Below, piece by piece: positions 19,203 to 51,749 of a stretch of 64,000 bases of DNA; position 1 is the stretch's first letter, and every line of letters begins with the position of its first letter. A program made the position numbers and the translations under genes. The notes below the pieces were generated by a model. It worked only from the letters and a program-made list of their open reading frames with translations, was not told the DNA's origin and searched no databases. The stretch is from Mariniflexile gromovii (GTDB lineage: Bacteria > Bacteroidota > Bacteroidia > Flavobacteriales > Flavobacteriaceae), in the NCBI RefSeq assembly GCF_017814435.1, contig NZ_JAGJCB010000002.1, forward strand, positions 124,001 through 188,000. Reading direction: 5' to 3'.

Positions 19203-19532
19203 ATGATAAAAGTTTCTGAAACAGCTAAGAAAAAAGTTATCGAACTTATGCAAGAAGATGGCTTTAACCCTGCTACCGATTTTGTGCGTGTAGGCGTTAA
19301 AAGTGGCGGTTGTTCTGGGCTATCTTACGATTTAAAGTTTGATAAAGAAAATAAAGAAGATGATAAAGTATTTGTAGACAATGATGTTAAGATTATTGTA
19401 GACAAAAAAAGTTTCCTGTACCTAGTAGGAACTACTTTAGAATACTCAGGAGGATTGAACGGTACTGGGTTTGTATTTAATAATCCAAATGCAAATCGCA
19501 CATGTGGTTGCGGTGAAAGTTTCTCACTTTAA
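19203..19532 (+). CDS. sufA: Fe-S cluster assembly A-type carrier (HesB/IscA/SufA family)
   Basis: 109 residues. The three conserved Cys are present: GGCSGLSY and the C-terminal pair CGCGESF. It carries or delivers Fe-S clusters to target proteins. It is the first gene of the suf cluster, 37 bp before a four-helix-bundle gene and upstream of sufB. The name sufA is by context; IscA or ErpA would fit the sequence equally well. Confidence 0.9.
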   Translation: MIKVSETAKKKVIELMQEDGFNPATDFVRVGVKSGGCSGLSYDLKFDKENKEDDKVFVDNDVKIIVDKKSFLYLVGTTLEYSGGLNGTGFVFNNPNANRTCGCGESFSL

Positions 19533-19537
19533 GTTTA

Positions 19538-19952
19538 TAAAGTAGAAAGTAAAAAAGTTTTAAAGTAGATGGCTAAGTTTAATTCTTTTGAAGAAATAAT
19601 ATCATGGCAAAAGGCAAGAGAATTAAACAAAGATATTTACAACTTAACAAAAGAAAATAAATATTTCAATGCTGATTTTGGTTTAAGAGACCAAATAAGA
19701 CGGTCAAGCATTTCAATTTCTTCAAACATAGCTGAAGGTTTTGAAAGAGAAACAACAAAAGAGTTCATTCGCTTTTTATATATTGCAAAAGCTTCCTCAG
19801 GAGAGTTTCGCTCGCAATTATATTTAGCTTTTGATATAAATTATTTAAGTTCAGATGAATTTGAAAAATTAAAGTTAAAAGTAAATGAAGTTTCAAAGTT
19901 AATTAGTGGTTTAATTAAATACCTGAATTCAACTTTATAACTTTCTACTTTA
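19538..19952 (+). other. Inverted-repeat-bounded cassette holding a four-helix-bundle gene
   Basis: Left arm 19538-19559 and right arm 19931-19952 pair over 22 bp with 2 mismatches; the outer 13 bp (TAAAGTAGAAAGT) are perfect. The right arm includes the stop codon of the enclosed gene. The whole unit (415 bp) fills the spacer between sufA and sufB. The same layout surrounds the other four-helix-bundle gene at 50174-50579. Confidence 0.75.
19569..19940 (+). CDS. Four-helix-bundle protein (S23/IVP family)
   Basis: 123 residues, helical throughout. The family signature [21 protein letters not shown] (residues about 38-58) is present in form, followed by the ARAS-like stretch [20 protein letters not shown]. 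Members are known from intervening sequences within 23S rRNA genes and are related to the Avd accessory protein of diversity-generating retroelements; the molecular role of stand-alone members is not settled. This copy lies inside the suf operon in the same direction, and is framed by inverted repeats. It is unrelated to Fe-S assembly as far as can be seen. Confidence 0.88.
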
Positions 19953-19969
19953 CAACATTAATACTAATT

Positions 19970-21418
19970 ATGAATAAATATACTGAAGACGATTTAAGGG
20001 AAGAACTTAAAACCAAGGAATACGAATACGGATTTTATACCGATATAGAATCTGACACATTTCCTGTGGGTTTAAATGAAGATATTGTTCGTGCTATTTC
20101 CCATAGAAAAGAAGAGCCAGAATGGATGACCGAATGGCGCTTAGAAGCCTTTCGTGCTTGGGAAAAAATGATTGAACCAGAATGGGCTAATGTACATTAC
20201 ACCAAACCAGATTTTCAAGCCATTTCGTACTACTCAGCACCAAACAGCAAGCCTAAATACAATAGTTTAGATGAAGTAGACCCAGAGTTATTAGCAACAT
20301 TTGCTAAACTTGGCATCTCTTTAGACGAGCAAAAGAAACTATCTGGTGTTGCTATGGACGTGGTGGTAGACTCCGTTTCTGTAGCTACAACTTTCAAGAA
20401 AACTTTAGGTGAAAAAGGCATCATTTTTTGCTCTATTTCTGAAGCGTTGCGTGAGCATCCAGATTTAGTTAAAAAATACATCGGTACCGTTGTGCCACAA
20501 AAAGACAACTTTTACGCCGCTTTAAACTCGGCTGTATTTAGTGATGGAAGTTTCTGCTACATTCCAAAAGGCGTTAAATGCCCCATGGAACTTTCTACTT
20601 ATTTTAGAATAAACCAAGCAGGAACAGGACAATTTGAAAGAACCTTGGTTATTGCCGATGAAGGTAGTTACGTTTCTTATTTAGAAGGTTGTACTGCACC
20701 TAGTCGTGATGAAAACCAATTACACGCAGCCGTTGTAGAGCTTATAGCTTTAGATGATGCCGAAATAAAATATTCAACCGTTCAAAACTGGTATCCAGGA
20801 AATGCTGAAGGTAAAGGTGGTGTGTTCAATTTTGTAACCAAACGAGGTTTATGCGAAAAGAACGCTAAAATTTCTTGGACACAGGTTGAAACTGGAAGTG
20901 CTGTTACTTGGAAATACCCATCTTGTGTATTGAAAGGTGATAACTCGGTTGGTGAGTTTTACTCTATTGCAGTAACAAACAACTACCAACAAGCCGATAC
21001 GGGAACGAAAATGATTCATTTAGGTAAAAATACCAAATCGACCATCATTTCTAAAGGTATTTCAGCAGGAAAATCTCAAAACAGCTACCGCGGATTGGTA
21101 AAAATTAGTCCGAATGCCGATAACGCCCGTAACTTTTCGCAATGCGATAGTTTGCTAATGGGTAACGAATGTGGTGCACACACCTTTCCGTACATTGAAG
21201 CTAAAAACAAATCGGCTAAAATAGAACACGAAGCAACCACTAGTAAAATTGGTGAAGACCAAATTTTCTATTGCAACCAACGTGGAATAGATACCGAAAA
21301 AGCGATTGCATTAATTGTAAACGGTTTCAGTAAAGAAGTATTAAATAAACTTCCTATGGAATTTGCTGTAGAAGCTCAAAAACTATTGGAAATTAGTTTA
21401 GAAGGCTCGGTAGGATAA
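19970..21418 (+). CDS. sufB: Fe-S cluster assembly scaffold subunit SufB
   Basis: 482 residues, typical length. The N-terminal helical region is followed by the right-handed beta-helix core with the family stretches [30 protein letters not shown] and the C-terminal [16 protein letters not shown]. The conserved C-terminal Cys (SQCDSLLMG region) and Glu are present. With SufC and SufD it forms the SufBC2D scaffold on which clusters are built in the cytoplasm. It is separated from the sufA-like gene by the four-helix-bundle cassette. Confidence 0.96.
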
Positions 21419-50147: not shown

Positions 50148-50173
50148 TTTTTGAATTTTTGAAAAGAGAAATT

Positions 50174-50579
50174 AGAATATAGAAGAAAGACTTTTAGAGC
50201 TTATTCTGAAAGCTCATAGTCATTTTTTGAAATTCTTCAATTTTTTCTTCAAGTTTCATTAGTGCTTCTCTTGTTATATAATTTCTTTTGAATGCTATTA
50301 TTAATTGTGTTTCAAGTTCAAATGAAGAGCCTAGAGATATATCAATAAAATGGGAAAAAGATTTATCTGTTCTAGACGAACCTTCTGCAATGTTACTTGG
50401 AATGGAAATTGAACATCTACTAATTTGTGAAATCAATCCAAATTTTTCATCTTTAGGAAAGTCACTTATAATCTCATAAACGTCATCAACTATTTCAATA
50501 CCTAGTTTCCATATCTTTAAATTCTTATAATTGTGTCTTATTCTTTTATCCATTTTCTTTATTCTAGCTTCTATATTCT
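50174..50579 (-). other. Inverted-repeat-bounded cassette, second copy
   Basis: Arms AGAATATAGAAG (50174-50185) and its perfect complement (50568-50579) enclose a four-helix-bundle gene, 406 bp in all. The upstream arm begins 15 bp before the ATG and the downstream arm starts 9 bp after the stop codon. The geometry is nearly that of 19538-19952, while the arm sequence differs (both contain TAGAA). It fills the hmgA-hpd spacer. Confidence 0.7.
50194..50553 (-). CDS. Four-helix-bundle protein (S23/IVP family), second copy
   Basis: 119 residues from the ATG complement at 50551-50553 (MDKRIRHNYKNLKIWKLG). An in-frame ATG at 50604 would add 17 residues (MAFLNRRIENIEARIKK) and cross the inverted repeat and the hmgA end, so the shorter start is preferred. 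The signature FGLISQISRCSISIPSNIAEG is present in form, followed by SFSHFIDISLGSSFELETQL. Same family as the gene at 19569, with clearly diverged sequence. It lies in the same direction as hmgA and hpd. Confidence 0.88.
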   Translation of the reverse strand: MDKRIRHNYKNLKIWKLGIEIVDDVYEIISDFPKDEKFGLISQISRCSISIPSNIAEGSSRTDKSFSHFIDISLGSSFELETQLIIAFKRNYITREALMKLEEKIEEFQKMTMSFQNKL

Positions 50580-50591
50580 CGATTCTTCTAT

Positions 50592-51749
50592 TTAAGAAAG
50601 CCACGATTTATGATAATCGTCATCGGCAATTTTCATACCTTCTTCTGTTACCATAAGTGGTTTAAACGTATCTACCATAACTGCTAGTTCATCGGTTTTG
50701 GTTTTTCCTATGCTACGCTCGGTAGCTCCTGGATGTGGCCCATGCGGAATACCTGCAGGATGTAGCGAGATATGACCCGCTTCAACATCGTTTCTGCTCA
50801 TAAAATCGCCATCTACGTAATACAGCACCTCATCACTATCTATATTGCTATGATTGTATGGCGCGGGGATGGAAAGTGGATGGTAATCGTAAAGTCGTGG
50901 TACAAAACTACACACCACAAAGGCATCGGTTTCAAAGGTTTGATGCACTGGTGGCGGTTGGTGGATGCGCCCCGTTATGGGTTCAAAATCGTGAATGGAA
51001 AAGGCATACGGGTAATTATAACCATCGTACCCTACTACATCAAACGGGTGCGATGCGTACACCATTTCTATAATATCATTTTGTTTTTTTACTTTTATTA
51101 GGAAGTCGCCCGTTTCGTTATAGGTTTCTAGTTCTTGTGGCTTTCGGATATCACGTTCACAATATGGCGCATGTTCTAATAATTGCCCAAACCAATTACG
51201 GTAACGTTTTGGTGTGTAAATAGGGCGGCGAGATTCAACAATAAACAGCCTATTCGCTTCCGTATCAAAATCTATTTTATAAATAACACCTCGTGGCACC
51301 AACAAATAATCGCCGTATTTAAAATCGAGATTCCCTAACATGGTCCTTAGTTTTCCCGAACCTTTATGGATGAAAATCAATTCATCAGCATCGGTGTTTT
51401 TATAAAAATAATCTTGTTTTCTTTGAGTAGGTGCCGCTAAAATAATGGCACAATCTTTATTGACCAATACTGTTTTTCGGCTTTCTAAATAATCGCGTTC
51501 TGGTTTTATTTGAAAGCCTTTCAACTTATACGACTGTATGTTGTTTGCCTTGGCTATTTTAGGCGCTACACTGTATTGTTTTTTTATTTCTTTTACTTGC
51601 GTGGGTCGTTGTTCGTGGTAGCTATTTGTATACATACCATCGAACCCAATGGTACCAAATAACTGCTCGGAATACAAACTGCCATCGGATTTTCTAAATT
51701 GGGTATGGCGTTTGCGCGGAATGTTTCCTAATTTATGATAAAAAGGCAT
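50592..51749 (-). CDS. hmgA: Homogentisate 1,2-dioxygenase
   Basis: 385 residues, a cupin-type enzyme, shorter than the about 430-residue eukaryotic form. Recognisable stretches: PFYHKLGNIPRKRHTQFRK, ELIFIHKGSGKLRTM, YHPLSIPAPYNHSNID, DEVLYYVDGDF and SLHPAGIPHGPHPGA, with the His/Glu iron ligands in the last two. It opens the ring of homogentisate to maleylacetoacetate in tyrosine degradation. First gene of the operon; fumarylacetoacetase is not in the window. Confidence 0.93.
   Translation of the reverse strand: MPFYHKLGNIPRKRHTQFRKSDGSLYSEQLFGTIGFDGMYTNSYHEQRPTQVKEIKKQYSVAPKIAKANNIQSYKLKGFQIKPERDYLESRKTVLVNKDCAIILAAPTQRKQDYFYKNTDADELIFIHKGSGKLRTMLGNLDFKYGDYLLVPRGVIYKIDFDTEANRLFIVESRRPIYTPKRYRNWFGQLLEHAPYCERDIRKPQELETYNETGDFLIKVKKQNDIIEMVYASHPFDVVGYDGYNYPYAFSIHDFEPITGRIHQPPPVHQTFETDAFVVCSFVPRLYDYHPLSIPAPYNHSNIDSDEVLYYVDGDFMSRNDVEAGHISLHPAGIPHGPHPGATERSIGKTKTDELAVMVDTFKPLMVTEEGMKIADDDYHKSWLS

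Follow-up and report, generated by a model that had tools for sequence, protein, structure and literature searches.

An S23-family cassette bounded by inverted word arrays in the suf operon of Mariniflexile gromovii, a candidate mobile element of operon spacers

The window that we analyzed, a 64,000-nucleotide stretch of the Mariniflexile gromovii genome (NCBI RefSeq assembly GCF_017814435.1, contig NZ_JAGJCB010000002.1, positions 124,001 to 188,000), carries between the Fe-S assembly genes sufA and sufB a short cassette in which an inverted repeat encloses a gene of the S23/IVP family (Table 1). All three genes lie on the same strand. The original prediction had described the enclosed gene as S23/IVP-like with 123 residues, the repeat as 22 bp long with 2 mismatches and the right arm as overlapping the stop codon of the gene (19938-19940), and we found all of this to be so; the complementarity extends to 31 nt in each arm. 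Both arms are built of a short word in tandem. AAAGT occurs on the left side at 19539, 19546, 19554 and 19562 (spacing of 7, 8 and 8 nt), with the last copy just beyond the arm, and ACTTT occurs on the right side at 19932, 19940 and 19947, followed by a degenerate ACATT at 19955 (spacing of 8, 7 and 8 nt). The inverted repeat is not a product of chance, as the alignment score of its arms (21) was reached in 0 of 500 mononucleotide shuffles (maximum, 19), and 0.4% of the pairings with the arms of other S23 loci equaled it. The long stem with the gene as its loop, also foreseen, was recovered in the predicted RNA fold of the cassette, where the arms pair in the minimum free energy (MFE) structure (z = -4.4). 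There was no Rfam match in the window, PADLOC models of anti-phage defence retrieved 0 families at E <= 0.001, and the profile search of the cassette gave PF05635 and a weak bAvd match only, with no catalytic domain. A search of 464 kb of the source genome (the window plus L172-L191) with ARAGORN yielded no tRNA gene.

Table 1. Positions of the two S23 cassettes of the window and of the host-operon neighbors of the first.
Feature	Position	Strand	Evidence or remark
sufA-type Fe-S assembly gene, upstream host-operon neighbor	19203..19532	+	PF01521, TIGR00049
Left arm	19529..19559 (core 19538-19559)	+	84% complementary to right arm
S23/IVP four-helix-bundle gene, 123 aa	19569..19940	+	PF05635, TIGR02436, AF2, PDB 2GSC and 2RLD
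Right arm	19931..19961 (core 19931-19952)	+	Inverted words; overlaps S23 stop codon
sufB, downstream host-operon neighbor	19970..21418	+	NF008773/TIGR01980
Second cassette, 3' arm region (bounds by eye)	50161..50193	-	
Second S23 gene, in a co-directional spacer (neighbors hmgA-hppD-like by eye)	50194..50553	-	Profile match
Second cassette, 5' arm region (bounds by eye)	50554..50600	-	

The protein encoded in the suf spacer matched the 23S_rRNA_IVP family (PF05635) at 2.3e-37 and 127.9 bits (cut-off, 33.8) and the 'four helix bundle protein' family (TIGR02436) at 127.3 bits (cut-off, 24). The AF2 model of the monomer is a four-helix bundle (pLDDT 96.6), and Foldseek aligned it with the S23 structures 2GSC (TM 0.78-0.87) and 2RLD (TM 0.78-0.82) and, more distantly, with Avd (4DWL) and a DGR complex (8UB7). 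The dN/dS ratios of S23 genes ranged from 0.06 to 0.18 (14 of 17 pairs, those with finite dS), which indicates that the protein is under purifying selection. A relative from Xanthomonas crystallised as a homopentameric ring, and the introduction of the same source gives the function of S23 proteins as unknown (PMC4990558).

Genes of this family populate many operons. The M. gromovii genome contains 12 PF05635 matches, some of them degenerate, and at least one match was present in 41 of 60 genomes (the source genome and its relatives), with up to 22 per genome among the matches listed. The main set comprised 141 loci from these genomes, about 11 listed matches (hand count) being left out; two loci wanted a called flank, and 139 had both neighbors. 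In 133 of the 139 the S23 gene is located between two co-directional genes, with median gaps of 53 and 48 bp, compared with 197 of 343 genes (57%) in a control region of 400 kb from the source genome; this region, which contains one S23 gene and its neighbors, also supplied the 73-gene control used below. Co-directional flanks were equally found at 73 of the 80 loci closest to the window protein and at 28 of 30 loci of a second subfamily (CAGT, see below), the remaining two being at contig edges. These counts indicate that S23 genes sit in sense orientation in operon spacers, an arrangement that is widespread and real among the relatives. The host operons of the source genome, with proteins named by eye, include suf, groES-groEL, atpA-atpG, ftsW-murG, hisH-hisA, prfA-pyrF and scoA-scoB. 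The cassette is, therefore, not specific to suf. The original prediction was right about the kind of element: an S23 gene arranged as a cassette in the spacer of an mRNA. The second cassette of the window (50161-50600, minus strand) has its own inverted arms, built of another word.

The 80 loci retrieved with the window protein have their nearest members in Marixanthotalea marina (93%) and Confluentibacter (91-94%). sufB is present at 53 of them, 21 in the sufA-sufB spacer and 32 others; gene sizes suggest that many of the latter are sufC-sufD or sufB-sufC spacers. The suf subfamily, thus, keeps largely to its own operon, which a free transposon would not do. One locus (L281, from a MAG record of Rhizobium sp. 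Q54) encodes an S23 protein 65% identical to that of the window, which was unexpected among Bacteroidetes matches. Published descriptions of flavobacterial S23 genes include one in F. columnare between the genes for guanylate kinase and an adenylyltransferase, listed under phage elements in the part of the paper available (PMC5524665), and one among the differentially expressed genes reported in the accessible text on F. psychrophilum (PMC5787105). In the openly accessible literature, a body of work that leaves subscription papers largely outside, we found neither S23 cassettes of operon spacers nor words specific to an S23 subfamily described.

Arms similar to those of the suf cassette bound many of the other S23 genes. 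Across the 139 loci, the complementarity score of the 5' and 3' flanks averaged 18.3 for own pairs versus 9.7 for cross pairs. The own pair fell within the top 5% of cross pairs at 100 loci, within the top 1% at 46 and above all of them at 22, with 39 loci outside the top 5%. The flanks of the 73 control genes had no such complementarity (own, 11.21; cross, 11.21). By eye, the arms are tandem words in many loci, and the 5' arm has more G than C in 79 of 99 loci (fewer in 13, equal in 7). Taken as a set, these comparisons indicate that a word of 7-8 nt, in inverted arrays, delimits the S23 cassettes.

The word itself follows the protein. For 79 pairs (68 loci) with at least 55% protein identity, taken from different spacers and genomes, the 5-mer similarity of like arms was 0.191, against a mean of 0.095 and a maximum of 0.134 in 5000 permutations. 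Over all pairs the word-protein correlation was weak (r = 0.081; null sd 0.027, null maximum 0.093 of 2000), as computed from the 113 of 133 co-directional loci with both flanks of at least 20 nt, 102 of which had proteins of at least 80 aa. The coupling must then hold inside subfamilies and, by these comparisons, is visible only above about 50% identity. In the suf subfamily the word is AAAGTY. We counted its AAGTY part at 73 of the 80 closest loci, leaving out the 7 without two co-directional called neighbors. The 5' flanks contained 177 copies on the sense strand versus 11.9 in shuffled flanks (maximum, 29) and 5 versus 5.3 on the antisense strand, and the 3' flanks contained 125 antisense copies versus 15.2 (maximum, 28) and 45 sense copies versus 12.0 (maximum, 22). 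The commonest spacings were 7 (77 cases) and 8 (45). In 125 other S23 loci the same word was mildly raised (5' sense, 42 versus 31.3; 3' antisense, 53 versus 26.4). Two loci with about 54-55% protein identity, from MAGs labelled Nitrospira (L313) and Thermoflexus (L323), labels that may be wrong, retain the AAAGTY core in both flanks; it is absent as AAGTY from the flanks of L320, labelled Proteobacteria, where the MAG label may likewise be wrong.

A second subfamily, represented by 28 of 30 loci in five spacer groups (L332 and L339 are the same loci as L110 and L142 of the 139-locus set, as L279 is L121), carries CAGT in the same layout: 117 sense copies in the 5' flanks versus 5.8 (maximum, 14) and 129 antisense copies in the 3' flanks versus 4.6 (maximum, 11), with 3 and 7 copies, respectively, on the opposite strands. 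In the converse counts, AAGTY occurs only 6 and 6 times in the CAGT subfamily, and CAGT 16 and 7 times in the 73 suf-type loci. These counts indicate that word identity is coupled to the S23 protein subfamily. Words of other subfamilies noted by eye include GAAGAC, AGAATCA and others. At one site (G362:C1:3462055-3462814) two matches of the CAGT subfamily follow one another head to tail with about 50 bp between them, a possible tandem cassette.

Occupancy of the spacers is sporadic. An S23 gene was present in 3 of the 30 sufA-sufB loci examined (the source genome, G001 and G012), and coordinates and neighbors indicate more sufA-sufB copies in G040, G042 and G053. The other 27 loci have spacers of 7-109 bp and no S23 gene; among them are those of 4 of the 5 remaining genomes of the genus. 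Empty sites, for which the original prediction had proposed to look, were, thus, observed, but they gave no exact insertion edges, as the empty spacers of the same genus (48-109 bp) are by eye unrelated sequences, some with other hairpins. We based the insertion comparison on the atpA-atpG pair rather than on sufA-sufB. Aligned between the stop of atpA and the start of atpG, arms included, the cassette of the source genome (G000) is identical to that of G002 at 447 of 455 aligned bases (98.2%), whereas the 600 bp flanking it on each side are 83.0% and 81.0% identical. In the tree, G002 falls outside the other five genomes of the genus, and G001, G003, G004 and G005 are nearer to G000, with modest support (85/78). 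A cassette this similar between flanks this divergent, in genomes that are not sisters, argues that the atpA-atpG cassette moved between species as a block, in one clean case. Both S23 copies are broken, by an internal stop codon in G000 and with a 1-nt alignment gap in G002.

The highest identity between S23 copies in unrelated spacers was 85% aa among 249 proteins (L271, suf, versus L272, non-suf; L274 versus L276). No copies above 85% were found in two unrelated spacers in that set, and the maximum in the first 141 loci was 77%; therefore, no very recent jump was caught. In 37 same-spacer pairs, which are non-independent, third-position identity of S23 was above that of both neighbors in 27, between them in 8 and below both in 2. 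The 85% identity between unrelated spacers and the 27 of 37 pairs slightly favor movement. A Y1 transposase was considered as a general mover and rejected, as Y1_Tnp is absent from the S23-rich genomes G032, G033, G004, G029 and G007. At the atpA-atpG site of G003 there is a gene-less hairpin made of the AGTTATGAGT word of the atpA-atpG cassette. Gene-less hairpins were also seen by eye at atpA-atpG in several other genera, and others, picked by eye, occur in co-directional spacers of the source genome.

The reading that we prefer, to which we give about an even chance on the strength of these sequence comparisons, is that the suf S23 gene belongs to a mobile operon-spacer cassette bounded by inverted arrays of its subfamily's word, and that the S23 protein recognizes its own arrays. 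The arms are word arrays whose word depends on the protein subfamily, and this points to the S23 protein as what recognizes them. The four-helix bundle would most likely bind its words at the DNA or single-strand level, with the arrays as the ends of the element. The cassette would be exchanged between species as a block with its arms and would settle in sense orientation in the spacers of transcribed operons, and loss of the S23 gene could leave a gene-less word hairpin, the probable origin of the hairpins described above. Word recognition would, in this scheme, serve persistence or mobility.

The original prediction had instead seen in the arms an RNA stem around the S23 gene, cut by RNase III and splitting the sufA-sufB transcript. 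Selection for RNA pairing is expected to favor G.U over A.C mismatches. The arms had 134 G.U versus 179 A.C mismatches in 99 loci and 42 versus 49 in 55 loci, or 174 versus 227 in the combined 153 loci, one duplicate locus having been removed. We read this lack of a G.U excess as evidence against selection for an RNA stem. Nor would an RNase III-cut stem lead one to expect that the word changes with the protein subfamily, and the claim that the arms are kept for RNase III thus found no support in these data. The predicted pairing of the arms in the MFE structure speaks for an mRNA intervening element, as do the 23S rRNA intervening sequences (IVSs) with an S23 open reading frame of the same anatomy, described in the available text as cut by RNase III (PMC4990558), yet we consider this explanation improbable. 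The evidence points, rather, to word recognition by S23 and a mobile cassette.

Somewhat less unlikely is an operon-resident autoregulator, in which an S23 ring would bind the word repeats that the RNA leader carries just before the S23 start codon, tuning itself and the next gene, and the 3' array, as an anti-word, would pair with this leader. TRAP binds repeats in this way. The placement of the words, 5' of the S23 gene in sense orientation and 7-8 nt apart, the purifying selection on S23, the fidelity of the subfamily to the suf operon and a fold resembling Avd, a component of a reverse-transcriptase ribonucleoprotein (8UB7), are all consistent with such a role. However, the 3' array of the CAGT subfamily equals the 5' array in strength (129 versus 117), the arm mismatches show no G.U preference, one subfamily is spread over unrelated operons, and occupancy of the spacers is sporadic. 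The arrays could also be passive, with slippage and template switching yielding low-complexity inverted repeats in spacers and S23 as a neutral passenger. The gene-less word hairpins of the source genome would fit this scenario, and so would the tandem heptamers of some Bacteroidetes spacers (PMC4679880, in the part consulted). Yet the AAAGTY core persists at about 54-55% protein identity (L313, L323), dN/dS is low (0.06-0.18), the word is coupled to the subfamily and control genes lack flank complementarity; this explanation is already disfavored and, in our estimate, very improbable.

Extending the mobile-cassette reading to the whole family, we suggest tentatively, and with more doubt than confidence, that S23/IVP proteins could form a large family of rings that read words. 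Each subfamily would travel with inverted arrays of its own 7-8-nt word as a sense-oriented mobile element of operon spacers, perhaps mobilized as RNA or as a single strand, and the rRNA IVSs would be a special case. Movement at this level would account for the marked sense orientation and for operons in which several spacers are occupied. If the mobile cassette is real, suf, groE and atp are among the operons that host a mobile element adapted to intercistronic spacers. The coupling of word and subfamily gives S23 proteins specific candidate ligands that are directly testable, and it offers a way to explain one class of inverted repeats, those of low complexity in the operon spacers of flavobacteria.

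The cassettes share traits with several known systems. REPIN/RAYT systems consist of a REP-associated Y1 HUH transposase gene flanked by short inverted repeats, together with gene-less intergenic hairpins. S23 genes are similarly flanked by short inverted repeats, and gene-less hairpins exist, but the protein encoded between the repeats is a four-helix bundle instead of a Y1 HUH transposase, and the words are 7-8-nt tandem units that vary among the copies of one genome. The fold of the model resembles DGR Avd (4DWL and 8UB7 in Foldseek), whereas the score against the bAvd HMM (PF22296) is below threshold (21.2 bits; cut-off, 40). The 23S rRNA IVSs of Leptospira, Coxiella and others carry an S23/IVP open reading frame between complementary ends and occur sporadically, according to the accessible text of PMC4990558. 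S23 cassettes share both features; unlike the IVSs, they lie in mRNA spacers of protein operons (here between sufA and sufB, not inside an rRNA helix), reach 22 per genome among the matches listed and have arms that are subfamily-specific word arrays. Tandem TAACTGA heptamers have been described in spacers near start codons of some Bacteroidetes (MacGregor, 2015; PMC4679880, as far as its text was available). They resemble the S23 words as tandem heptamers in spacers and differ in being direct repeats rather than inverted arrays; the term S23 is absent from the text of that paper.

Some spacers carry what appear to be decaying cassettes or other elements. The sufA-sufB spacer of G001 (L014) has an orthologous cassette in which S23 is frameshifted by eye and the arm words are still present. 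At the groES-groEL spacers of G003 (L195) and G001 (L197), a palindromic element with CGTCAT...ATGACG ends accompanies a seemingly decayed S23 gene (by eye), and the 3' remnant of the S23 cassette is likely still there. Lastly, hairpins rich in G and C, of the form CCCCTTT...GGGG and dissimilar to the S23 words, occur at L017, L225 and L226 in spacers of suf and atp.
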